From Paenibacillus jilunlii (GTDB lineage: Bacteria > Bacillota > Bacilli > Paenibacillales > Paenibacillaceae), in contig NZ_FNGM01000002.1 in the NCBI RefSeq assembly GCF_900102965.1, positions 114,559 to 178,558 on the forward strand: a stretch of 64,000 bases of DNA. The letters are read 5' to 3'. A program made the position numbers and the translations under genes. Below are positions 407-61,062 of this stretch, one piece after another (within the stretch, counting starts at the first letter, position 1; every line of letters starts with the position of its first letter). Below the pieces are notes generated by a model. The model was not told where the DNA came from. It did no database searches and saw only the letters and a list, made by a program, of their open reading frames with translations.

Positions 407-591
407 TAGTGGGAAAAAGGTTCACTAATCGGACTAACTCGGCTTATGGGCCAGCCTATGTTGGAAAAAGTACCACTAATTCGGCTGAAAGTGACCGTAA
501 GGGATGAATATGCACGAATTAGGTGCCCAAAATCCAACTAAAACCTTCTGCAGCCAGGGTTTCAGTGAATTAGTTTTACTTTTTTCACTTA
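407..591. repeat. Intergenic 51-bp-spaced repeat element, copy 1
   Basis: Two direct units begin near 407 and 459 (type TGGAAAAAGNNNCACTAATT) and two inverted units near 517 and 568 (type AATTAGTTTTACTTTTTTCA). Spacing is 52, 58 and 51 bp. Units are about 24 bp and conserved, while the 27-30 bp between them vary. The rest of the 361-804 gap shows no convincing gene. The same architecture occurs six more times in the window. Confidence 0.8.
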
Positions 592-2315: not shown

Positions 2316-4229
2316 TCACAGCGCCTCGATAATATCCCCGGCGATCAATGCCGACGGATCATGGCGCTGGCGGGCAGCCCGTTCCCCGGCCAGGCCGTGC
2401 AGATAGACGCCAAAGGCCGCTGCCTGTGCGGCATTGAGCCCTTGCGCAAGCAATCCCGCAATGATGCCGGTCAGCACATCGCCCGCACCGCCCGTTCCCA
2501 TGCCCGGATGGCCCGTGATATTCACATAAGCCTCTCCTTCAGGAGTTGCGACCACCGTATGAGCCCCCTTCAGCACAAGGGTTACCCCGTGCTCCCGGGC
2601 ATAAGCCAGCGCCAGACCGATCCGGTCTCTCTGCACCTCAGCCGTAGATATTCCGGCCAGCCGGGCCATTTCCCCCGGATGGGGCGTCAGGATCACCGGA
2701 TGGCGGCGGCTTGTCCAGGAGCTGTAATCACTGTCGGCCAGCATATTCAGCGCATCGGCATCGATAACCATTGGAGCATCGATGCCTTCCCACAGCGCGC
2801 GCAGCCACTCCTGATCGCCCGGAAACCGTCCAAGCCCGGGTCCCACAGCAGTGACATCTCTGCCAGTGCTTAGCCGCAGCACTTCTGCGGCAGTCCCGGC
2901 GCTCCAAGTGCCATTCTCACCACCGGCGGCTGCCAGCATCAGCTCCGGAGCTGCGCCGATGACATAGGGCAGCAGCATCGAAGGCAGCGCCCAGGTCACC
3001 AGGCCGCAGCCTGCGCGGAGGGCGGCGCGGGCTGCGAGCAGGCCCGCCCCGCTCATGCTAAGGCTTCCCGCCGCCAGCAGGACATGCCCGTAGGTGCCCT
3101 TGTGGCCCTCGGGCGAACGGCGGCGCGACACGTCGACCTGCAGACGTGTCCGCAGCACCTCCGGCGTCAGCAGGCTCGCCGGGACGCCGCCCTCCCGGGC
3201 CAAAGCAGCGGGGATGCCGATGGAGCGGACCACCACCTGCCCGGCGTTGCCCGCGCCGGGATATTGCAGCAGCCCGCGTTTGAGGAACGCGAGGCAGACC
3301 GTCACCGCCGCATGAATGCACGGCTTATGCGTCTGGCCCGTGTCCGCATCCAGCCTGCTGGGGATGTCTGCGGACACAACGGGTTTGCCGCTGCCATTCG
3401 CAGCGGCAATCAGCTCCGCATAGGCACCGCGCGGGGCGCCCGCGCTGCCGGTGCCGAGCAGCGCATCCAGGATGCCGCTGCATGCGGCAAAGTCCACCCG
3501 GTCCCGGCCGTAGACTACGGCGGGCAGGCCCATAGCTGCAGCGGCATCGCGCTGCAGGGCGGCTTCGCCGGCCAGCGACTCCGGCGCGGCCGCGTACACC
3601 AGCGTGACGGCGATGCCCGCCTCACGCAGATGCCTGGCGGCGGCGATGCCGTCGCCGCCGTTATTGCCTTTGCCGACGAGGACGAGCCAATGCTCGGCGC
3701 CGGCACGCCCCAAGGTCAGCGCAGCATCGCCGCTGACCGTGAAGCCGGGCGGCTTGATCCCCGGGCCGCCGCCTGTGCCCTGCGTTCCATCTGGTCCGTA
3801 CACCCTGCCGGCCCACGCTCCATCTGGTCCGTACACTCCGTCGCCCCACGCTCCATCTGGTCCGTACACCCTGCCGGCCCACGCTCCATCTGGTCCGTAC
3901 ACCCTGCCGACCCACGTTCCATCTGGTCCGTACACTCCGTCGCCCCGCGTTCCGCCTGGACTGTACGCTCCGCCGTCCGGGCTTCTGTCCAGTGCGCCAG
4001 CCTCAGTGCGCCCCGGCTGACGCGCACCCCCGTCTTGGACTGTTCTGCTTGTTCCAAGTGTCCATGCAGCAGAGGTATCAGCTCCGCCAAATCTGCGGCG
4101 GCACAGCTTAATGATCTCCTCCGCAATGGCCCTGCCTGCATTTTCCATCAGCGCTACCGCCGGGATGCCCAGCCGCTCAATCGTCTGGCGGTCCAGCTCC
4201 CGCATATCCTGCGCAGTCACTATATACAT
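2316..4229 (-). CDS. nnr: Bifunctional NAD(P)HX epimerase / ADP-dependent dehydratase
   Basis: Repairs hydrated NAD(P)H: the N-terminal YjeF-type domain epimerises R- and S-NAD(P)HX and the C-terminal ribokinase-like domain dehydrates S-NAD(P)HX using ADP. Visible features are the N-terminal MYIVTAQDMRELD, the epimerase motif VGKGNNGGDG at about 195-204, and GTGGAGDVLTGIIAGLL near the C terminus. ATG 4229 is chosen because homologues start at this point and AAGGGGG lies upstream; the longer frame to 4334 has no support. The odd part is residues about 47-175. There the usual short link between the first helix and the NNGGDG loop is replaced by a Gly-rich insertion with an 11-residue tandem repeat of type VYGPDGAWAGR. 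Confidence 0.93.
   Translation of the reverse strand: MYIVTAQDMRELDRQTIERLGIPAVALMENAGRAIAEEIIKLCRRRFGGADTSAAWTLGTSRTVQDGGARQPGRTEAGALDRSPDGGAYSPGGTRGDGVYGPDGTWVGRVYGPDGAWAGRVYGPDGAWGDGVYGPDGAWAGRVYGPDGTQGTGGGPGIKPPGFTVSGDAALTLGRAGAEHWLVLVGKGNNGGDGIAAARHLREAGIAVTLVYAAAPESLAGEAALQRDAAAAMGLPAVVYGRDRVDFAACSGILDALLGTGSAGAPRGAYAELIAAANGSGKPVVSADIPSRLDADTGQTHKPCIHAAVTVCLAFLKRGLLQYPGAGNAGQVVVRSIGIPAALAREGGVPASLLTPEVLRTRLQVDVSRRRSPEGHKGTYGHVLLAAGSLSMSGAGLLAARAALRAGCGLVTWALPSMLLPYVIGAAPELMLAAAGGENGTWSAGTAAEVLRLSTGRDVTAVGPGLGRFPGDQEWLRALWEGIDAPMVIDADALNMLADSDYSSWTSRRHPVILTPHPGEMARLAGISTAEVQRDRIGLALAYAREHGVTLVLKGAHTVVATPEGEAYVNITGHPGMGTGGAGDVLTGIIAGLLAQGLNAAQAAAFGVYLHGLAGERAARQRHDPSALIAGDIIEAL
3787..3984. 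repeat. 33-bp in-frame tandem repeat inside nnr
   Basis: Five good copies and one degenerate copy of a 33-bp unit start at 3787, 3820, 3853, 3886, 3919 and about 3952. Read on the minus strand, each encodes an 11-residue unit VYGPDG(A/T)W-x3. The unit length is a multiple of three, so copy-number change keeps nnr in frame. Confidence 0.9.
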
Positions 4230-4507
4230 TAGCCCAGCCCCCTTAGTTGATTCGATTGTACTTGGTACAGGGGGCTCAAGCAAATCCTGTATCCTCCGAA
4301 TCTGCACTATCACAACGGCACCCCTGCCACTCATTTACCCGATTGTCCGAAACTCCTCACACCGAATATAAAACTCCGAATATTCCAAGGGATCTACTGC
4401 CCTATTACCCAGCAGAAGCGGCTTCGCCGTCTTTTACAGGGACGGTATCGTTTCAGCGGGAAATATACGGATGGTTTGTGGTGTGAAACATATAAATCCA
4501 ATATTTC

Positions 4508-4536
4508 AAAAAAGACCTCCCGAAAACGGAAGGCCT
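4508..4536 (-). terminator. Rho-independent terminator after the 4584-5216 gene
   Basis: On the minus strand GGCCTTCCG-TTTT-CGGGAGGTC is followed by a run of T (positions 4513-4508). It lies 50 bp past the stop of the NAD(P)-binding protein gene. The rest of 4230-4583 shows no gene; a short motif at 4444-4465 resembles part of the hairpin at 29110. Confidence 0.75.
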
Positions 4537-4583
4537 TACTTTATCTTTGTTCGGCATACGCTCAGGACAGGTTTGTCCGCCGC

Positions 4584-5216
4584 TCAGTATCCCACCGTAA
4601 ACCGGGTCCGGCTGAAGTTTCCTTCCTCCAGCTCGTCAATGACAGCTACGGCAAAATCCTCCACGCTGATGCTGCTGTCTCCGTTCTCATCCACCACCAG
4701 CCGGTCGAGGCCGATGCGGAACTGCCCGGTCCGGCGGCCGGGGCGGATCACGGCAGGCGGGCTGAGATACGTGTAGTCCAATGAAGAAGCGCTATAGATT
4801 TCATAGGCATGTCCATGCGCCTCCGCCAGCGGCCGGAACTTCTCGGGGAACCCCGGCGTATCCATCAGCCACTCGCCCGACTCCGTCTTCAGGGTGCCTG
4901 CTCCGCCAATGACCAGCAGGCGCTTCAGACCTGCAGCCTGCAGGCCCTCCAGCAGGCTCTCCGCCGCACGCAGCAGGTCGTTCTCCCGCCCGGCTGCGGG
5001 ACCAAATGCACTGATCACTTCGTGATGCCCGCGTACAGCCTCTGCTACCGCCGCCGGGTCCAGAATATCTGCAGTAGTAACCTGCAGACGCTCATCTTCC
5101 AGCTCCAGTGAAGCCGGATTGCGGACCACTGCAGTGACCTCATGTTTTCTTTTTAACGCTTCCTGCACAATGGCTCTGCCAATCGTTCCCGTTGCTCCAA
5201 AAACCACAACATCCAT
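4584..5216 (-). CDS. NAD(P)-binding protein, NmrA/YwnB-like atypical SDR
   Basis: A 210-residue Rossmann-fold protein beginning MDVVVFGATGTIGRA, so the dinucleotide motif GATGTIG lies at residues 7-13. It also has VIGGAGTL in the middle and YTYLSPP near 150. This matches the NAD(P)H-binding atypical SDR group of Bacillus YwnB, proteins of unknown substrate that often act as redox sensors or reductases. An ATG five codons upstream (5231) is possible but has GGAG only three bases away; the start at 5216 has GGGGG eight bases upstream and matches the family N terminus. It is monocistronic with its own terminator. Confidence 0.85.
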   Translation of the reverse strand: MDVVVFGATGTIGRAIVQEALKRKHEVTAVVRNPASLELEDERLQVTTADILDPAAVAEAVRGHHEVISAFGPAAGRENDLLRAAESLLEGLQAAGLKRLLVIGGAGTLKTESGEWLMDTPGFPEKFRPLAEAHGHAYEIYSASSLDYTYLSPPAVIRPGRRTGQFRIGLDRLVVDENGDSSISVEDFAVAVIDELEEGNFSRTRFTVGY

Positions 5217-12741: not shown

Positions 12742-12854
12742 CTTCGTTTGAGAGGATAAAAGCGGCCTTCAGCGCTCCAACAACGGCAACCGCCCTTCAC
12801 CAGATAACGTAGCTGTTGTGGATTTCAATTCCTTCATAAATCCGCGGCCCTTCC

Positions 12855-13039
12855 AAGTGGAAAAAGGACCACTAATTGGTCCCAGCACACTGATCTCTGC
12901 AGCCTAAGTTGGAAAAAGGACCACTAATTCAGCTCAGTTCGCTCCTAGAGGAGTAAAATCACCCAATTAAGTCACCTTTTTCCACTTGAATTTCTCATTT
13001 GTTGATTTAGGGGGGAAATAAGTTCCCTTTTTCCAACTA
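12855..13039. repeat. Intergenic 51-bp-spaced repeat element, copy 2
   Basis: Direct units at 12855 and 12906 (AAGTGGAAAAAGGACCACTA type) and inverted units at 12965 and 13016 (CCTTTTTCCACTT type). Spacing is 51, 59 and 51 bp. This is the cleanest copy. It lies between convergent genes; the rest of 12742-13269 shows no gene. Confidence 0.85.
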
Positions 13040-13269
13040 ACGGTTGTTCACCTGCTTCTTCGCCAGCGCGGGTTGGAAAACGGCTATCGAATCAGGCTGA
13101 ATACCACCCTGCTGGTTGAATGCGTTGAATTCAGGCCCACTCCCCCCCAACTTTATGCGTATTATATCCATTAGTGAAAGAAATCATAATTTCCTAAACA
13201 ACAAAAAACACGGCCCAGGCAACGAAATTCTGCTTTTCATTGCAGCAAGGCCACTCTCTGCTAGTCCGA

Positions 13270-19114: not shown

Positions 19115-21439
19115 TCATACAGATTTGGGAACCTGCAGGGCCCGGACGCTGTTCAGTACCGCAAGCACGGTCACACCCACATCCGAGAAGACGGCTTCCC
19201 ACATCGTGGCAATCCCGAAAGCTCCCAGCAGCAGGAATAATGCCTTCACTGCCAGGGCAAAAATAATATTCTGCCAGACGATGGTCCGCGTGCGCTTGGC
19301 AATGCTGACCGCTGTGGCGATTTTTGACGGTTCGTCAGTCATAATGACGATATCTGCCGCTTCAATCGCCGCATCCGAGCCCAGTCCACCCATAGCGATG
19401 CCGACATCCGCCCTGGCGAGTACCGGAGTATCATTAATCCCGTCGCCGACAAAAATAATCTTCTCCCGCTGTGATTTCTCCCGCTCCAGCTTCTCGATAG
19501 CTTCGACCTTGTGCTGCGGCAGCAGTTCAGCGTGAACCTCCTCAATTCCCAGCTGCTGCCCAACGGCTTCCGCAACCGGGGAGGCATCGCCCGTCAGCAT
19601 GACGGTTCTGTGGATGCCCAGCCGTCCAAGTGCCTGAACCGCCTGAAGCGAATCCTCTTTTACTTCATCAGCAATGACCAGATAACCCGCATACTGCTGA
19701 TCAATGGCGATATGGACCACCGTTCCGTTCTGTTCAGGCGTCCGGCTGGCAATGCCTTCACGTTCCATCAACCGTGCGTTTCCGGCCAGTACCGCCTTGC
19801 CCTCCACCATAACGGCAATGCCGTGTCCGGATATTTCGTTGTAGTCCGCTATAACGTCACCGGGAATTTCTTGGCCGTAAGCCGCCCGGATGGACTCCGC
19901 AATCGGATGGCTGGAGTGGCTCTCGGCATAGGCAGCTGTCCGCAGCAGATCGTTCTCCTTAAAGCCCTCCGAAGGGTAGGTCCCCGTTACCTTGAATTCG
20001 CCTTTCGTGAGCGTTCCTGTCTTATCAAACACAACCACTTTAACATCGTTCAAGGCCTCCAGGAAGTTGCTGCCTTTGACGAGAATGCCGCTTTTGGAGG
20101 CTGCGCCAATGCCGCCGAAGAAGCCAAGCGGGATCGAAACAACCAGCGCGCAAGGGCAGGAGATGACTAGAAATACAAGCGCCCGGTAGATCCAGTCCGA
20201 GAAAGTGGCTCCGCTCAGCACGAGTGGAGGGATTACAGCCAGCAGGAGCGCGGTAGTAACCACTACAGGCGTATAGCCTCTGGCAAACTTGGTGATAAAA
20301 TTCTCAGTTTTTGCCTTATTATTGGAGGCGTTCTGCACCAGCTCCAGGATTTTGGAGACGGCCGATTCTCCAAATGTCTCAGTAACCTCAATCGTAACCA
20401 CACCATTGCGGTTAATAAATCCGCTCAGCACCTTGCTGCCCGGTTCAGCTGCACGCGGCACCGATTCCCCGGTCAGCGCCGAGGTATCCATCATTGCACT
20501 GCCTTCAAGAATGGTTCCGTCCAGCGGCACCTTCTCCCCCGGTTTGACCACAATATGATCGCCAATCCCTACTTCATCCGGCGCAACACGTCTTAGATTG
20601 CCGGCTTCCTTCAAATTAGCGAACTCGGGGCGGATATCCATCAGCGCCGTGATGGAGCGGCGGGAACGGTTGACCGCCATCCCCTGGAACAGCTCGCCAA
20701 TCTGATAAAACAGCATGACAGCTACGCCTTCGGGGTATTCCCCAATAGCGAAGGCCCCTATCGTTGCGAGTGCCATCAGGAAATTCTCGTCGAAAACCTG
20801 GCCCCGGACGATGTTCCGGGCAGCAGACCAGACGACCTCGCCGCCGACAATCAGATAAGCGGCCAGGAAAACCAGCAGCTCCAGGATTCCGCTGACCGGC
20901 AGGAACATTCCCGCCGCCGCAAGGATGCCTCCGGCTCCCAGACGCAGCAGGATGCGGCGGGTATCGCCTTCCCCATGTTCATGGCTGTGCCCGTGCGCAT
21001 CGGCATGGGCATGGGCTTCGCGGCTGTGCCCGTGCGCATCAGCATGAGTATGGGCTTCGTGGCTGTGCCCGTGCGCATCGGCGTGAGCATGGGCTTCGCG
21101 GCTGTGCCCGTGCGCATCAGCATGAGCATGGGCTTCGCGGCTGTGCCCGTGCTGCGGGCTGGCGCCTGGCTGCGGGTTCCTGCGCAAGCCTGCCGGCTTC
21201 ACTTCCTTGACCTTCACGTGAGGTTCAAGGATATTAACCGTCCGCCGGGCTTCGGCGGACACTGCCTCGGCATCGGCCGCCGCAGTTTCCAGGGTCATCA
21301 TCTTCATGGTGAAATTCACCGAGCAGGACGTCACTCCTTCAATCTTCTTGACCTTATTTTCGATTTTCATAGCGCAATTGGCACAGTCCAGTCCTTCGAG
21401 CATCCACTGACGTCTCACATTTCCTTGAACCACATTCAA
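19115..21439 (-). CDS. cadA: Heavy-metal P1B-type ATPase (Cd/Zn/Co exporter) with His-rich repeats
   Basis: Metal-exporting P-type ATPase of about 774 residues. An N-terminal heavy-metal-associated domain carries GLDCANC, and a His-rich linker (about residues 97-155) has four copies of a 13-residue unit of type HGHSREAHAHADA. Then come membrane helices, the transport motif SCPCALV, the phosphorylation motif DKTGTLT, HPIA for nucleotide binding and GDGINDTPVLA. The CPC type plus His-rich tail fits Zn/Cd/Co export. AAGGGAG abuts the ATG at 21448, so the TTG at 21439, nine bases on, is the likelier start. An ArsR-type operator lies in the 5' UTR. Confidence 0.92.
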   Translation of the reverse strand: MNVVQGNVRRQWMLEGLDCANCAMKIENKVKKIEGVTSCSVNFTMKMMTLETAAADAEAVSAEARRTVNILEPHVKVKEVKPAGLRRNPQPGASPQHGHSREAHAHADAHGHSREAHAHADAHGHSHEAHTHADAHGHSREAHAHADAHGHSHEHGEGDTRRILLRLGAGGILAAAGMFLPVSGILELLVFLAAYLIVGGEVVWSAARNIVRGQVFDENFLMALATIGAFAIGEYPEGVAVMLFYQIGELFQGMAVNRSRRSITALMDIRPEFANLKEAGNLRRVAPDEVGIGDHIVVKPGEKVPLDGTILEGSAMMDTSALTGESVPRAAEPGSKVLSGFINRNGVVTIEVTETFGESAVSKILELVQNASNNKAKTENFITKFARGYTPVVVTTALLLAVIPPLVLSGATFSDWIYRALVFLVISCPCALVVSIPLGFFGGIGAASKSGILVKGSNFLEALNDVKVVVFDKTGTLTKGEFKVTGTYPSEGFKENDLLRTAAYAESHSSHPIAESIRAAYGQEIPGDVIADYNEISGHGIAVMVEGKAVLAGNARLMEREGIASRTPEQNGTVVHIAIDQQYAGYLVIADEVKEDSLQAVQALGRLGIHRTVMLTGDASPVAEAVGQQLGIEEVHAELLPQHKVEAIEKLEREKSQREKIIFVGDGINDTPVLARADVGIAMGGLGSDAAIEAADIVIMTDEPSKIATAVSIAKRTRTIVWQNIIFALAVKALFLLLGAFGIATMWEAVFSDVGVTVLAVLNSVRALQVPKSV
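20978..21148. repeat. 39-bp in-frame tandem repeat in the metal ATPase gene
   Basis: Four near-identical 39-bp units encode the 13-residue His-rich unit on the minus strand. The copies are more alike than coding constraint needs, which points to recent expansion. Confidence 0.85.
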
Positions 21440-21467
21440 AACACCCATCTCCCTTGTTCAAACCTAT

Positions 21468-21888: not shown

Positions 21889-22073
21889 TAGTTGGAAAAA
21901 GGATCACTAATTCCTCTCGCCCGCCCCCTAGATGGGAGTTAGGTGGAAAAAGGATCACTAATCTGGACGGATTTGCCCATATGGAGATAATTGTCTTAAA
22001 TTAAGTTCCATAATTCCCACTAAACCCTTGGAAGCCCTGAATTTCGGGAAATTAGTTTTACTTTTTCCACTTA
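21889..22073. repeat. Intergenic 51-bp-spaced repeat element, copy 3
   Basis: Direct units at 21889 and 21940 (TGGAAAAAGGATCACTAAT) and inverted units at 21998 and 22049; spacing 51, 58, 51 bp. It lies between the divergent metal ATPase and CDF genes. The flanks (21532-21888, 22074-22277) contain no gene I can support. Confidence 0.85.
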
Positions 22074-22355: not shown

Positions 22356-23411
22356 ATGAATAACCACAGCCATCAAGGGCATACCCACGAGCATAACGAG
22401 CATCAAGAGCATTATGAGCACCACGACCATAACCAGCATCAAGAGCACCACGAGCATAATGATAAGCAGAAGCATGTACATAATGACCGACACGGACACA
22501 GCCATTCTGGACACAGCCATTCCGGTCATTCCCATTCCCACGCGCCCAATAACAAAAAAGGACTGCTGATCGCCCTGATCATTACAGGGGGCATTATGTT
22601 CCTTGAATTCTTCGGCGGATTAGTTACCGGCAGTCTGGCTCTGCTCTCGGATTCCGGGCATATGCTGAGCGACACTGCCTCATTGGCATTAAGTCTTGTG
22701 GCAATGATTTTTGCCGTCAAACCGCCTTCATTGAAAAATTCCTACGGTTACTACCGGTTCGAAATTATGGCCGCATTATTCAACGGGGTTACGCTGTTTG
22801 TAATTGCCGGGTTTATTATCTGGGAGGCCTGGCAGCGGTTTTTCGAACCACCGGCAGTGGCAAGCGGCACTATGATGATCATAGCGGCTGTAGGGCTTTT
22901 AGCTAATCTGATCAGCGCCTGGTCCCTTATGCGTAAAAGCGATACCAAAGACAACATCAACATACGCAGCGCCTATCTGCATATCATGGGTGACGCCCTC
23001 GGCTCCGTCGGTGCCCTGCTGGCAGGGTTAATCATGAATTTGTTCTCCTGGTATGTTGCCGATCCAATCATTAGCGTACTGGTAGCTCTGCTCATCCTTA
23101 GAGGCGCCTGGGGGGTTCTGAAGCAGGCCTTCCATATTCTGATGGAGGGGACGCCGGTTTCCGTCAATACCAATGATATCAAAGAAGCCTTATTGAAGAT
23201 CGACGGGGTTGAAGATGTCCATGACCTGCATGTCTGGACCATCACGTCCGGACTTGATGCGCTCAGCGGACATCTGCTGATCAAGGATCACGCTGACCCC
23301 CATAGCATACTCCAGCAGGCAATTATTGTAGTGGAGGAAAATTTTGCGATACAGCATACAACACTGCAGATCGAGAATTCTTCCCTGAAACACGGGGAGC
23401 TGCGGGTATAG
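22356..23411 (+). CDS. czcD: Cation diffusion facilitator (CzcD/ZitB-like zinc exporter)
   Basis: A 351-residue proton-coupled metal exporter. The first ~65 residues are extremely His-rich (HxHxH clusters), then come six membrane helices with the metal-site pattern SDSGHMLSDTASL in TM2 and HIMGDALGS in TM5, the two Asp/His sets that carry Zn or Cd. The C-terminal cytosolic domain includes VHDLHVWTITSG. AAAGGGG lies seven bases before ATG 22356, which is preferred over an upstream start at 22329 lying inside the operator. It probably forms a zinc/cadmium-resistance regulon with the divergent ATPase and the convergent ArsR gene. Confidence 0.92.
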   Translation: MNNHSHQGHTHEHNEHQEHYEHHDHNQHQEHHEHNDKQKHVHNDRHGHSHSGHSHSGHSHSHAPNNKKGLLIALIITGGIMFLEFFGGLVTGSLALLSDSGHMLSDTASLALSLVAMIFAVKPPSLKNSYGYYRFEIMAALFNGVTLFVIAGFIIWEAWQRFFEPPAVASGTMMIIAAVGLLANLISAWSLMRKSDTKDNINIRSAYLHIMGDALGSVGALLAGLIMNLFSWYVADPIISVLVALLILRGAWGVLKQAFHILMEGTPVSVNTNDIKEALLKIDGVEDVHDLHVWTITSGLDALSGHLLIKDHADPHSILQQAIIVVEENFAIQHTTLQIENSSLKHGELRV

Positions 23412-28537: not shown

Positions 28538-28689
28538 ACATGTCAAATCCTTTCTCTCATTCTGGAAAAAGCAAAAAATGGCTCCGGCGTCCTTTGGGAG
28601 CCTCCAGTTTTCGACTGCCGGATATCTTATCTGTATCTTATAATTTAACCTAGTAATTTCATATTCCTCTAAGCTAGGCGGTTCAGCCC

Positions 28690-28875
28690 AAGTGGAAAAA
28701 GTGAACTTAAAATCCCCCCACCTGTTCGGTCTGCCAGCGCTAGTTGGAAAAAGTAAACCTAATCCGGCCCATTCCTGGCCTTTCAGGTGAATTCACTTCA
28801 AATAAGTCTACTTATTCCAACTAATACCTTCTCTTGGACGCTTTCGGGCCGATTTAAGTTCACTAATTCCACTTC
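28690..28875. repeat. Intergenic 51-bp-spaced repeat element, copy 4
   Basis: Direct units at 28690 and 28741, inverted units at 28800 and 28855; spacing 51, 59 and about 55 bp. The inverted units are more degenerate than in copies 2 and 3. It is upstream of the response-regulator gene in a ~970-bp gene-free region (28538-29509). That region otherwise holds the hairpin at 29110 and a terminator. Confidence 0.75.
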
Positions 28876-34638: not shown

Positions 34639-34678
34639 ACACCGTAAGAACACAGCAATACCCATAACTTCATAGTAC

Positions 34679-34772
34679 CAGGGGGGCTGGAATTGGCCGG
34701 CTGAGAGTGTATCCCGCAAAGATACTGACCCTTATACCTGATCTGGATAATGCCAGCGTAGGAATCCATTAC
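34679..34772 (+). promoter_or_regulatory. TPP riboswitch (THI element)
   Basis: The conserved thi-box sequence is present: GGGGGGCTGG at the 5' side, the pyrimidine-sensing GGCTGAGAG, then GACCCTTATACCTGATCTGG and ATAATGCCAGCGTAGGAA. With the terminator at 34820 it would stop transcription when thiamine pyrophosphate is abundant. Confidence 0.97.
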
Positions 34773-34819
34773 CCGCTACTCAGCCCATTTGGCCTAAGCG
34801 GTCACCTAACGCAACTGCA

Positions 34820-38235: not shown

Positions 38236-38422
38236 TTAGTGGGAAAAAGTATACTTAAATCTGCATATAACAAGCATAGCTGATCATTAGTGGGAAATAG
38301 TATAACTAATTCGGCTCTTGAGGCCCACTCGATGGTTAATAGCCTGAATTAGGTGGAGAAAATCCCACTAAATCCTAAAAACACGCAAATTCCAGCTATT
38401 TAAGTGTACAAATTCCAACTAA
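38236..38422. repeat. Intergenic 51-bp-spaced repeat element, copy 5
   Basis: Direct units at 38236 and 38287 (AGTGGGAAAAAGTATACTTA type) and later units at 38347 and 38399; spacing 51, 60, 52 bp. The third unit is a hybrid between direct and inverted forms. Beyond it, 38440-38600 is a low-complexity CTTTCCGACTTTC-like stretch without a gene. Confidence 0.75.
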
Positions 38423-43051: not shown

Positions 43052-44395
43052 CTACCACCCGCTTCCCCGTGCCGCCTCCTGGACAATGGCCCTGACACCC
43101 TCATCAATCTGATCCAGCCGGGCGCGGGAAATGCTGATGCGCATGAACTTTTCCCGGTTCCGGTAACCGGATATATAGAATCCATTGCCGGACACGACGC
43201 TGATCTTCCGCTCCGCCAGCCGCTTGACCAGACGCTCCAGATTCACGGTTACCGGCAGCTTGAATTGCAGGTAAACACCCGAGCTGGCCGCAGACACCTC
43301 AATCAAGCCTTCCGTATTGTGCCGCGCAAGCGCCTCATATACCGCTTGAATTCTTTCTGCGTACATAGCTTTTATTTTGTGCCTATGGTGCCCGTACATG
43401 CCGTTCTTGATGTACACCTCAAGCGCTGCCTGGGATAACAATGAGGTGTCTGTGTATCCTTTATACGCCCGGAAGGTCTCCAGCAGCGGTTCCGGCACCA
43501 CGGCCGCACCCAGCCTGAGACCTGGAAAAATGATTTTGGAGAAGCTTTTCAGATAAACGGTATGTGAAGTCTGGTCATACGCAACTATAGGGTCAAAACG
43601 CTGCTCGGCACCCAGATCGGCCATGTAATCATCCTCTACGATATACACATCGTATTTGCCGGCCAGTCCGGCAATGGCTTTCCGCTCCTCCGTGCTGTAA
43701 GAGGTTCCTAGCGGATTATGATACCTGGGCATGGTATAGAAAAATTTAAATCTGCCGCTTGCGAACCACGTCTCCAGCTCCCGCAGGTCAATCCCGGCTG
43801 CCGAACGGGCGATCCCGCTCACGGGCAGTCCCTCCGCCTCCAGATACCGGAGATAAATATCATAACCCGGCTGTTCAACCAGGATCTCCGTCCGGCCGTT
43901 AGGAAATGGCATTCTGGCCAGAATCTCCAGTGCCTGCTGGATGCCTGAAGTGATGATGATCCGCTCCACCTTGGCAAACACCTGGTACTCCGCCAGATGC
44001 GACACCAGCGTATGCCGCAGCGTATCCAGTCCCAGTGCATCACCATAGGTGAACAGGTGGTACTTGTACCGGTCAATCGCTTTGTTGAGGCAATGCTGGA
44101 AGTCCAAATACGGAAATACGTTCAGATCGGGCGAAGCTGAGGCAAAATCAACCGTCACGCTGCTCCCGGCAGGTCCCGGCTCTTCCGTCTTTTCCACCAT
44201 GTAATAGCCGCTCTGCGGAATCGAATAAATCGCGTGTGTTCTCTCCAACTCTGCGTAAGCCCGCAGAATGGTGCTGACACTGCAACCGTAGAGTTCTGCG
44301 GCACTGCGCACGGAAGGCAGCTTTTGCCCCGGACTGTACTGTCCCTCCTTGATCCGCTTCTCCATCTCGGATAAGACCGAATGATACTTTCTCAT
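43052..44395 (-). CDS. MocR-type GntR/aminotransferase regulator
   Basis: A 447-residue regulator. An N-terminal GntR winged helix (GQKLPSVRSAAELYGCSVST then ILRAYAEL) is fused to a fold-type-I aminotransferase domain that binds pyridoxal phosphate, with VEDDYMADL and the Schiff-base lysine in SFSKIIFPGLRLG. MocR proteins sense PLP adducts of amino acids or related effectors. GGGGAGG lies before the ATG. It is divergent from the EamA exporter, the usual target arrangement, with a perfect palindrome at 44478 between them. Confidence 0.92.
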   Translation of the reverse strand: MRKYHSVLSEMEKRIKEGQYSPGQKLPSVRSAAELYGCSVSTILRAYAELERTHAIYSIPQSGYYMVEKTEEPGPAGSSVTVDFASASPDLNVFPYLDFQHCLNKAIDRYKYHLFTYGDALGLDTLRHTLVSHLAEYQVFAKVERIIITSGIQQALEILARMPFPNGRTEILVEQPGYDIYLRYLEAEGLPVSGIARSAAGIDLRELETWFASGRFKFFYTMPRYHNPLGTSYSTEERKAIAGLAGKYDVYIVEDDYMADLGAEQRFDPIVAYDQTSHTVYLKSFSKIIFPGLRLGAAVVPEPLLETFRAYKGYTDTSLLSQAALEVYIKNGMYGHHRHKIKAMYAERIQAVYEALARHNTEGLIEVSAASSGVYLQFKLPVTVNLERLVKRLAERKISVVSGNGFYISGYRNREKFMRISISRARLDQIDEGVRAIVQEAARGSGW

Positions 44396-44477
44396 AGCAC
44401 GCCTCCCCTCGCCTTCATCACAGGATTGTGTTCATATTATCATTGTTCTTGTTCAATCATTATACAGGAATCACGAA

Positions 44478-44493
44478 ACTGTACCGGTACAGT
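44478..44493. promoter_or_regulatory. Perfect 16-bp palindrome in the mocR/eamA intergenic region
   Basis: ACTGTACCGGTACAGT, about 85 bp before the regulator start and 100 bp before the exporter start. It is the most likely MocR operator here, though MocR sites are often direct repeats. Confidence 0.5.
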
Positions 44494-44595
44494 ATCAGGA
44501 AACAGGTATTGTTGGGCTGCGGATTTCCCTTTAATTTTAAATAACAGATAAGACGTTTATACGATCCTGTCATGTTCACAAAGGGGGATGTACCT

Positions 44596-45549
44596 ATGCA
44601 GCAACAAGGACTCAAGCTGGCTTATGCCTTTGCCGTGCTCAATGCGTTCATTATCGGATTCTCATTCTTGTTCACCAAAGTGGCACTCGGCCATGCCGGA
44701 CCGCTCGATACACTAACCTACCGCTTCGCCGCCTCGTTTGCAGTGATGTCGGTCCCGGTCGCTCTCGGCTGGGTCAAAGTCTCCTACCGCGGCAAGCCGA
44801 TTGGCCGGGCGCTGCTGCTGGCTGCAATGTACCCGCTCGGGTTCTTCACCCTTCAGGTATTTGGACTCCAGCACGCTACCTCTGCCGAGGGAGGGATACT
44901 GTATTCGTTTACTCCGGTCGTGACGATGATCATCGCCTCTATTTTCTTGAAGGAGACGACGACTCTGCTGCAAAAGCTATGTATTTTCCTGTCTGTATTC
45001 GGCGTTGTGTTTATCTTCGTTATGAAAGGGAGCAGCATTCAGCTGTCCAATATGACCGGGATTGTGCTGTTGTTCATGACCTGTCTGGCTTTTGCCGGGT
45101 ACAGTGTGCTGGCCCGTTCGCTCTCCAGGCATTTCAGCCCCGCTGAGCTCAGCTACCTGATGATGGGGATTGGCTTCGCCACCTTCCTGATCATTTCGCT
45201 CACCGGACATACGGCCAGCGGAACTCTCGGCGATTTCCTAAGCCCGCTCAAGAGCGGCACCTTTATCCTGTCCGCTGTATACCTGGGGGTCATAGCATCC
45301 CTTGTTACTACCCTGACCTCAACCTATATCTTGTCCAAAATCGAAGCTTCCCTTATGAGTGTGTTCACCAATCTCTCGACCATCGTCTCCATTGCAGCCG
45401 GAGCCCTCTTTCTCGGGGAAGAGATCACAGTGTATCACTGGATCGGATCGTTCCTGATTATAGCAGGGGTAATTGGCACGAACTTGCTGGGCCGGAAAAA
45501 GGCAAAAGCCAGACCCGGTGCTGATCAGGCGGTGCCTTTAAGCAGGTGA
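44596..45549 (+). CDS. EamA (DMT) family transporter
   Basis: A 317-residue exporter with ten membrane helices in two EamA repeats (for instance FIIGFSFLFTKVALGHAGPL early and IASLVTTLTSTYILSKIEAS late). Such proteins export amino acids or metabolites. AAAGGGGG lies eight bases before ATG 44596; the ATG at 44572 precedes this site. Divergence from a MocR regulator suggests control by that protein, with a substrate related to amino acids. Confidence 0.9.
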   Translation: MQQQGLKLAYAFAVLNAFIIGFSFLFTKVALGHAGPLDTLTYRFAASFAVMSVPVALGWVKVSYRGKPIGRALLLAAMYPLGFFTLQVFGLQHATSAEGGILYSFTPVVTMIIASIFLKETTTLLQKLCIFLSVFGVVFIFVMKGSSIQLSNMTGIVLLFMTCLAFAGYSVLARSLSRHFSPAELSYLMMGIGFATFLIISLTGHTASGTLGDFLSPLKSGTFILSAVYLGVIASLVTTLTSTYILSKIEASLMSVFTNLSTIVSIAAGALFLGEEITVYHWIGSFLIIAGVIGTNLLGRKKAKARPGADQAVPLSR

Positions 45550-45601
45550 GAAGCTGCTCCATCATGGAGTGCATACGCTCATGCAGAGCAGAAAAGCCTA
45601 A

Positions 45602-45666
45602 GTCCTGAAACTGGCGGACAGAAGTATGCCTGTTCAACAGCTCAAGGGTTTCAATCGTTGGTTTCC
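45602..45666 (-). pseudogene. Decayed 5' fragment of a nitroreductase gene
   Basis: About 65 bp closely match the first 20 codons of the gene at 42220 (ETLELLNRHTSVRQFQD), in the same orientation. Similarity stops abruptly after the aspartate codon and no start is kept. It is either a remnant of a second nfrA-like gene lost by deletion or a short duplication; it lies 2.7 kb from the intact gene. Confidence 0.75.
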
Positions 45667-45667
45667 A

Positions 45668-45715
45668 AAAAAAGAGTTGTCCCGCATCCTTCCCGGCTGC
45701 GGAACAACTCTTTTT
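45668..45715. terminator. Bidirectional terminator
   Basis: AAAGAGTTGT-CCCGC pairs with GCGG-ACAACTCTTT, with A-run on the left and T-run on the right. It serves both the EamA gene and the convergent secreted-protein gene. Confidence 0.85.
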
Positions 45716-45727
45716 CGATAATGCGGG

Positions 45728-46597
45728 TTACGATTGCCCGGTGATGATCTGCTCTGCGAGTGATACCAGAGCTTCCTTGGTGATCTCCCCCCCAGTGGCA
45801 ATGATGGTATAGCTTATCTTGGTTCCCGAGTCTATCCATTCCAGACGCTGCTCGCCCGGGCTGTTATTAATCACCGGAGAGCTGGCTGTCTTATACTTAA
45901 GCGCATCTCCGGCCTTGTAAGTCAGGTCCTGCCCCTCCACCGACAGCTTTTCCGGCTCGGCCAGGGATGGGACGTATTCTATACTGGGGTCCGGTGTCCC
46001 GGCAGGCTCGGCAGTGATGGACAGAAATGCCCCAGCCTGCTGCGAGCCGGGACTGCCCTGGTATGTCAGGTTGATACTCCAGCGTTTGTCGGTCATTTTT
46101 TTGACAAATACCGTTTTGCCGGAAGCTTTGCCCTCCTCTACAATCTGCTTGCTCAGCTTCTGTCCTTCAATTGACCAGGTCTGTGGTGTATACACACCCA
46201 GGTACGCAGTTTGGAATTGAAAGTCTTCAGGCGCCTGCTCCAGTTGCAGGAAAGGGGTCTTGAGCACTTGCGCCTTCTGTACATATTCCTGGTAATTATT
46301 AAAAGGCAGGCCGTACGCGAATGCCCGATAAGAAAATCCGCCAGGATTAACCTTTTTATCGTTCACATACACATAATATATTTCTCCGGGATTCTTCTTC
46401 TGAAGCTGAATCGCATCAACCTGGGCCTGGATCTTCTTAGTGGTCTCCTTGGTGCTTGCCACAGGGACAGCGGTCGCACCTTTGGCCGCAGACTTCGTTG
46501 TGGACTGGCTGGCGGCGGCTGCAGCGTGTGAACCGTAAGCGGAGCCTAACAGCAGCCCTAGGCTGGCCAGGGCAATGACTGGCTTGTGAAATTTCAT
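45728..46597 (-). CDS. Secreted protein of unknown function, ECF-sigma target
   Basis: A 289-residue protein with a Sec signal peptide (MKFHKPVIALASLGLLLGSA, cleavage near SHAAAA) and a Ser/Thr/Lys linker. Its mature domain is unrecognised. The C-terminal half (RLEWIDSGTKISYTIIATGG followed by EITKEALVSLAEQIITGQ) resembles the end of the putative anti-sigma factor next door (QLVWLDSVQGQGAYYSLSDS...LINVAASML), the DUF4367-like layout. GGAGGAGAG lies before the ATG. It has its own promoter at 46693, matching that of the sigma gene. It may help sense envelope stress. Confidence 0.75.
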   Translation of the reverse strand: MKFHKPVIALASLGLLLGSAYGSHAAAAASQSTTKSAAKGATAVPVASTKETTKKIQAQVDAIQLQKKNPGEIYYVYVNDKKVNPGGFSYRAFAYGLPFNNYQEYVQKAQVLKTPFLQLEQAPEDFQFQTAYLGVYTPQTWSIEGQKLSKQIVEEGKASGKTVFVKKMTDKRWSINLTYQGSPGSQQAGAFLSITAEPAGTPDPSIEYVPSLAEPEKLSVEGQDLTYKAGDALKYKTASSPVINNSPGEQRLEWIDSGTKISYTIIATGGEITKEALVSLAEQIITGQS

Positions 46598-48928: not shown

Positions 48929-49062
48929 TAAGTGGAAAAAGGGTAACTAATTTAGCACATTTCGCCCCTAATCAGGTAATATAGCCTAATTAAGTTCCTT
49001 TTTTCCACTTAAATCTCATAATTGTTGATTTCCGGGAGAAATAAGTTCCCTTTTTCCAACTA
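48929..49062. repeat. Intergenic 51-bp-spaced repeat element, copy 6 (lacks one unit)
   Basis: One direct unit at 48929 (AAGTGGAAAAAGGGTAACTA) and two inverted units at 48988 and 49039, spacing 59 and 51 bp. The place of the other direct unit is occupied by family B. Its last half is nearly identical to copy 2. Confidence 0.8.
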
Positions 49063-58450: not shown

Positions 58451-58474
58451 CCTGTTAGGCTCTGCAGCAGGCCC

Positions 58475-58658
58475 AAGTGGAAAAAGTAAACCTAATTTCC
58501 CCCTCATCTTGCTTCCCCGCAAGTGCTAGGTGGAAAAAGGATAACTAATTCAGCAGTTTGCCCCCTTACCACCGAATTCGCTTAAATTAACTCTACTTTT
58601 TCCCACTATTCTCTCCTGGGGAAGCCTTTTCGTCCCCTGAAGTGGATTTATTCCACTT
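58475..58658. repeat. Intergenic 51-bp-spaced repeat element, copy 7
   Basis: Direct units at 58475 and 58527 (AAGTGGAAAAAGTAAACCTA) and inverted units at 58584 and 58640; spacing 52, 57, 56 bp. Between convergent genes; nothing else recognisable in 58659-58847. Confidence 0.8.
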
Positions 58659-60818: not shown

Positions 60819-61062
60819 AATCAAAGGTACTTTTACCTTTGATTCCGCCCCCTTGGCCCACTTCTGGTGAAATCAAAGGTACTTTTACCTCTCATTTGGC
60901 CCTGTCACCCACTTTTGGCTCAATCAAAGGTACTTTTACCTCTCATTTGGCCCTGTCGCTGACTTCCGGCCAAATCAAAGGTACTTTTACTTCTCATTCG
61001 GCCCTGACGCCCACTTCCGGCTAAATCAAAGGTACTTTTACCTCTCATTCGGCCCTGACGCC
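60819..61062. repeat. Tandem repeat, 51-52 bp period, five copies (family C)
   Basis: Copies start at 60819, 60871, 60922, 60973 and 61024. Core AATCAAAGGTACTTTTACCT contains the hairpin AAAGGTA-CTTT-TACCTTT; the rest of the unit (CTCATTCGGCCCTGACGCCC type) is also conserved. It lies between the AraC gene and the matrix operon control region. Confidence 0.9.

Follow-up and report, generated by a model that had tools for sequence, protein, structure and literature searches.

A dispersed intergenic element of Paenibacillus jilunlii with four dyad sites at fixed spacing, a candidate docking platform for a DNA-binding protein

Seven copies of an intergenic element lie in the window, the whole 64,000-nucleotide stretch of Paenibacillus jilunlii DNA that was analysed; none of the copies is assigned to a strand. 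Copy 1 (407..591) sits in a divergent gap, with dyad centres at about 417, 468, 530 and 581 and hence spacings of 51/62/51 bp. Copy 2, the subject of this report, occupies 12854..13039 in a convergent gap (centres at about 12864, 12916, 12978 and 13029; 52/62/51). It belongs to a subfamily whose longer repeat runs here from 12790 to 13221 on the plus strand and consists of a left hairpin module, the four-unit core and a tail with a degenerate fifth unit. Copy 3 (21889..22073; centres at about 21899, 21950, 22012 and 22063) lies in a divergent gap; the two divergent genes that flank it contain histidine-rich tandem coding repeats (22385-22459 and 20983-21152). Copy 4 (28689..28875; centres at about 28699, 28751, 28813 and 28865; 52/62/52) is found in a tandem gap, and copy 5 (38237..38421; units '+++-'; centres at about 38247, 38298, 38360 and 38411; 51/62/51) in a convergent one. 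Copy 6 (48929..49062), in a tandem gap, has three units, '+--', centred at about 48939, 49001 and 49052 (62/51). Copy 7 (58474..58658; centres at about 58484, 58537, 58598 and 58649) again occupies a convergent gap. Its fourth site (58640-58658), which scored below the threshold of our weight matrix, forms the perfect palindrome AAGTGGATTTATTCCACTT at a centre distance of 51 bp from site three; among 18 slots missed by the matrix, two have at least six arm matches. The sequence-only reading, made from the letters of this DNA before the present analysis, had located all seven copies to within 1 bp, and the unit offsets that it gave, about 0, 51, 110 and 161 bp, are correct.

Other features of the neighbourhood deserve mention. 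Across the whole window, the only Rfam match is a TPP riboswitch, above gathering score, at 34670-34781. The contig of the window also carries tandem palindrome arrays with a 51-bp period. Those of the type AATCAAAGGTA-CTTT-TACCTTTGATT are found in the window at 60819-61062 and on contig C28 at 21080-21466, 280703-281485 and 362082-362206, with a period of exactly 51 bp, units of 24-26 bp and palindromes that may or may not be perfect; a syntenic array of this type in the related genome G030 has about 19 copies. Arrays of a second type, AACAACGGCA-TTTC-TGCCGTTGTT, lie on C28 at 111321-111510, 261560-261703, 280454-280646 and 361493-361675. The two types lie near each other at 280 kb and 361 kb, and a stem of intermediate form occurs in G030. 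Their period and form suggest that the arrays may be akin to the four-site elements.

The element proper is made of four dyad, or palindrome-like, sites whose centres are 51, 62 and 51 bp apart. In the weight matrix, the left and right letters of each unit have mirrored frequencies, and the start-to-start spacings of neighbouring units are sharp, at 51 bp for units of the same sense and 58 bp for facing units. Over 1.258 Mb, of which 400 kb had been picked for containing matches, there are 218 distances of less than 130 bp between neighbouring centres; 110 of them are exactly 51 bp (139 are 50-52 bp), 60 are exactly 62 bp (70 are 61-63 bp) and one is 72 bp. The start spacings of copy 5 are 51, 62 and 47 bp, yet its centre spacings are the usual 51, 62 and 51 bp, and in the five '-+' pairs the centre distance is 51 bp in four and 50 bp in one. 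The A-tract of a site can thus flip while the position of the centre stays unchanged. Because flipped units keep the centre spacing, the centre and not the orientation is the working coordinate. The arrangement of two direct and two inverted units, proposed earlier, is not the invariant; the fixed feature is the spacing of the dyad centres. Three-unit forms fit the loss of one 51-bp step. At 10.2-10.4 bp per turn, distances of 51, 62 and 72 bp would correspond to 5, 6 and 7 helical turns. Within the P. jilunlii genome the dyads are weak, with 3.7-3.8 of 8 arm pairs matched against 3.1 for a best-of-three background, and the paired positions of a unit share almost zero mutual information.

The 7.03-Mb genome is estimated to contain about 370 copies of the element, a figure extrapolated from 45 in an unselected 858 kb. 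In this sample, 45 clusters of at least two units stand against 8 lone units. Scanning 458 kb of the window's contig with the weight matrix detected 102 units above 15 bits, and none in either control (one shuffle and the reversed sequence). Searching the whole genome for a two-unit pattern with up to three mismatches gave 84 matches and none in controls; a stricter version of the pattern proved too strict, with no match even in this genome, and a model of the half-element has at least 151 matches, with 150 of 2,243 candidates scored. The structured family postulated by the sequence-only reading therefore stands, since the search beyond the window found neither the seven copies only nor lone units at random spacing. 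Its statement that the copies are always outside genes is nearly true: by our simple gene finder, 6 of 167 unit centres in the 858 kb fall inside called genes.

Within the window, the gaps that hold copies are convergent in three cases, divergent in two and tandem in two, in line with the earlier impression that the element does not mark a single kind of junction. This impression does not carry over to the 858 kb, where convergent gaps hold 19 of the 45 elements but account for 20% of intergenic bases (p 0.001), divergent gaps hold 4 and account for 21% (p 0.06), and the remaining 22 elements are in tandem gaps; the background here is intergenic bases in gaps of at least 250 bp between genes called by the simple finder. 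An earlier count, which included small called genes and 400 kb selected for matches, placed 26 elements in convergent, 32 in tandem and 2 in divergent gaps (60 of 67 elements, 7 being unplaced), and we prefer the weaker, unselected recount. The preference is consistent with a structural or insulating function at the ends of genes, and equally with mere avoidance of promoters. Along the chromosome, the copies are more evenly distributed than random on contig C28 (p 0.001) and not on contig C32 (p 0.40), and we build no argument on this evenness.

The same spacing recurs in other genomes of the genus, with different letters in the half-sites (TTAGAGGGA, TTAGTGGGA, TTAACTGGA, TTAGTTGCA). The half-element model has matches in 19 of 60 genomes, our own counted. 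Loci that score low with this model show the same layout written in other letters, such as TAGAGGG..CCCTCTA in G012, TAACTGG in G025, TAGTTGCA in G015 and TAGTTGGA..TCCAATTA in G045, a member of another family. When 17 low-scoring loci were scanned for palindromes without a model, the maximum lay on the element in 11 and elsewhere in 6, and the mean best score was 22.2, compared with 19.4-21.1 at ten other spacings. A two-dyad covariance model, built from 25 half-elements of these genomes and our own, was run on 100 genomes of the genus and has matches in 62 and none in the other 38; 27 genomes have at least 30 matches each. The counts rest on 47 scored candidates in each genome, and a place that is palindromic may enter them once for each strand. 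Among 20 further loci from G012, G016 and G108, 12 have spacings of exactly 51/62/51 bp, 6 are within 1 bp of this and 2 differ, and their best scores are 23-31 of 32, compared with 17-19 in shuffled loci. With a 51-bp pair imposed beforehand, a second pair at exactly 62 bp is present in 14 of 27 loci. An exact two-unit pattern retrieved one stretch from a collection of named genomes that may omit records near our own; it comes from Paenibacillus sp. S150, which makes this a named record carrying the layout.

The palindromes that are weak in P. jilunlii are strong in G012, G016 and G108, and near-perfect in G012 and its relatives. Compared across genomes, the two sides of the dyads change together: 42 cells are changed on both sides, compared with 25.7 after shuffling, and the covariation score is 0.237, compared with 0.169 (none of 500 shuffles as high in either case), and sliding the partners out of register lowers every measure. 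In two of the five measures the real data do not stand out from the shuffles (9 versus 8.8 pairs changed on both sides; 26 versus 25.8 further pair types). Within G016, 10 positions are compensated on both sides where 2.0 would be expected under independence, which a hairpin would also explain; in G012 and G108 the covariation within units is at chance level only.

From the geometry, the constraint and the distribution of the sites we infer that the dispersed four-dyad module is likely a docking platform for dimers of one putative sequence-specific DNA-binding protein, a reading to which we assign a probability of roughly 0.55. A protein dimer would read each dyad, because the half-sites vary independently in the P. 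jilunlii genome, yet change together between genomes. Four dimers of the one candidate protein would then line up along one face of the helix, one per dyad. As copies favour convergent gaps and lone sites are rare, the job of the platform is probably structural, for example to organise DNA or to insulate it where genes end, and not the control of promoters. New copies would arrive by insertion, in the cleaner cases inside a larger repeat of about 220-500 bp.

Insertion is also the starting point of the main rival explanation, according to which the element is a selfish miniature transposable element whose four sites bind a transposase encoded elsewhere and whose copies have no host function. 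We consider this unlikely as the whole explanation, although it may be partly true as well, if the element spreads by insertion and its sites are kept up afterwards. The high copy number suits it, as does the existence of subfamilies with common flanks. So does the presence or absence of copies at orthologous places in close relatives: over the aligned parts, our stretch shares 94.15% identity with G033 and 93.84% with G030. G033 has 13 of the 25 elements mapped to it and lacks 12, although one of the absences (C28 163487) is contradicted by reverse mapping; for G030 the numbers are 19 present and 6 absent, and for G027 3 and 2. The place of copy 2 (12854..13039) is empty in G033 and G027, and in G030 the orthologue has two units only, one having gone from each side. 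Copy 3 (21889..22073) is kept at the orthologous place in all three relatives. Since 12 of 25 mapped copies are scored missing from G033, no single copy looks essential. Of the 20 calls of absence for our copies, 17 have a shorter gap in the relative and so look like missing DNA, which argues against scoring bias, and 3 have a longer one.

Some of the empty sites are clean. Overlapping flanks, of 2-14 bp (10 bp in one case), were seen at the empty site in five comparisons (4 insertions) out of 15 selected ones, the pattern expected from a target duplication; among the 15, no common duplication length was found. The inserted piece exceeds the four-site core and measures about 220-500 bp in the cleaner cases, including, in one subfamily, the hairpin module and the tail. 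Common element ends were not found either, and both flank modules of the best-known subfamily are missing from 30 of 67 elements. The loci that we read contain no autonomous parent. In the syntenic segment of G027, copies are interrupted by enzyme genes (3150-5000 and 44100-45800), presumably insertions of IS110- and IS256-type transposases; their positions within the element differ and they appear incidental, so we rejected them as parents.

The flanks have a repertoire of their own. A hairpin repeat, GGCTACGCCGTCC..GGACAACGTAGCCG, lies in the left flanks of many copies (for example C28 226463-226702) and also occurs on its own; of its 37 matches, 25 have an element no more than 150 bp away. 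In several copies of one subfamily, the tail contains a row of the words TTATCCCCA, TTATGCACA and TTATCCACA, which we take to be DnaA-box-like. Sibling tails with these words are L013 14815-15230, L029 16415-16820 and L052 1320-1765, and the tail of the window copy is degenerate.

An argument against a selfish element comes from the divergence of orthologous copies, in which the units differ by 0.074-0.085 and the spacers by 0.174-0.205 (flanks, at 0.31-0.39, are inflated by poor alignment). With the units placed in a third genome and the divergence taken between the other two, the values for units and spacers are 0.079 and 0.222 (units lower in 10 of 10 elements), 0.102 and 0.185 (6 of 8), and 0.079 and 0.177 (10 of 10). 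The earlier observation that the units are conserved while the DNA between them varies is thus borne out, the sites evolving 1.8-2.8 times more slowly than the spacers, and the sites have therefore been held after insertion. Neutral decay following insertion would not predict slow units. Inside the unit, divergence is greatest at the free base (65 of 213) and about 4% at the tightest positions. Left out were 6 ortholog pairs more than 25% different, in the first set of divergences and the per-position counts, and 3 elements more than 30% different, in the comparison with units placed in a third genome; scoring a copy as present only with two units above threshold favours slow units somewhat.

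That the element acts as a structured RNA, its transcript forming either one long hairpin (unit 1 paired with 4, and 2 with 3) or four small ones, is much less probable still. Full elements do fold better than shuffles (mean z -4.74, n=51, compared with -1.94, n=49, for flanks), but this is how inverted repeats must fold. Two near-perfect palindromic stretches from G012 and its relatives reach z -7.6 and -6.0, and the compensated changes in G016 also favour a hairpin. In contrast, four 150-nt stretches of the window copies have fold z-scores from +0.4 to -2.6. The sequence-only reading had suggested a long paired structure and covariation of the paired positions as a check; the slots expected to pair do not covary (1 with 4, z -0.7; 2 with 3, z 1.4), whereas tandem neighbours do (1 with 2, z 6.1; 3 with 4 less so, z 2.5). 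Nor do the two halves of an element suit each other: exchanging halves between copies improves the pairing (-54.3 kcal/mol for native halves versus -59.6 kcal/mol for swapped ones), and the native combination is better in 12 of 51 (p 0.0003). Covariation within units is, with the exception of G016, almost nil in our own genome and not beyond chance in G012 and G108. A spacing that is precise to about 1 bp is not something that an RNA would need. At gathering score, Rfam matched none of 20 loci from other genomes, nor the window between 12700 and 13300. On the covariation between slots and within units, the fold z-scores and the swapping of halves, we rejected the RNA hairpin.

That the element is a REP/BIME family mobilised by a RAYT (Y1) transposase is barely conceivable, despite the short intergenic palindromes, the estimated hundreds of copies and the preference for gene ends, since Y1_Tnp (PF01797) has no match in 16 of the 27 genomes that match the two-dyad model 30 times or more and the one match in our own genome carries five stops, counts that led us to discard it.

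Of the three roles that the sequence-only reading had offered, the architectural DNA-binding site is the best supported, by the phased dyads, the constraint in cis and the half-sites that change together between genomes. The palindromic mobile repeat survives in part, in that an orthologous place can have the element in one genome and lack it in another, and the RNA element does not. Beyond the docking platform itself, we entertain, as a tentative extension that we would not yet bet on, a so far undescribed, chromosome-wide nucleoprotein system in the genus: each genome would have hundreds of four-dimer stations with a fixed spacing of 5/6/5 turns, each lineage would rewrite the half-site letters of all its stations in step with the surface by which one protein recognises them, and the 51-bp arrays would serve as stations for sister proteins that share its oligomer geometry.

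A sharp and testable clue lies in the dyad centres, whose spacing persists in many genomes although the letters change, and in the constraint on the sites in cis. If a protein is found, it would be one of the few in bacteria that have hundreds of chromosomal stations of their own, and the genus would offer a natural series for the change in specificity of one protein and several hundred sites.

To our knowledge, dispersed palindromic repeats are common in bacteria, and the role of most is unknown. Among the papers listed, a set that is thin for subscription journals and hence gives no proof of absence, we found no title or opening of an abstract that describes such an element for Paenibacillus, and the relevant passages of PMC3733652, PMC4666352 and PMC2267715 do not name the genus. 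The element resembles the REPs and BIMEs of enterobacteria and Pseudomonas in its palindromic intergenic units of 20-40 bp, its high copy number and its composite arrangement. The opening of the abstract of PMC2817692 describes BIMEs as containing REPs at regular spacing in alternating orientation and as binding several proteins; our element differs in its four sites at a fixed 51/62/51 bp and in the lack of a Y1 match in the 16 element-rich genomes mentioned above. REPs are defined, in the relevant part of PMC3733652, by a GTAG or CGTC tag at one end of the palindrome, and no tag of this type is apparent by eye in the unit consensus or the alignments. From MITEs, as described in part in PMC3733652 and as generally understood, the element is set apart by conserved, constrained units within diverged spacers; no fixed ends were found. 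It is like MITEs (bcr1, RUP, NEMIS, ERIC) in being non-coding, with few unit centres in called genes, in having inverted outer units and in its variable presence between relatives. Multi-site docking arrays, such as those of parS/ParB and matS/MatP, the Noc sites and the ends of Tn7 and Mu, have repeated sites that are read by one protein and are sometimes helically phased. Site sequences and numbers are different in these systems, and here the four-site unit is itself repeated genome-wide, with a half-site that varies from genome to genome.
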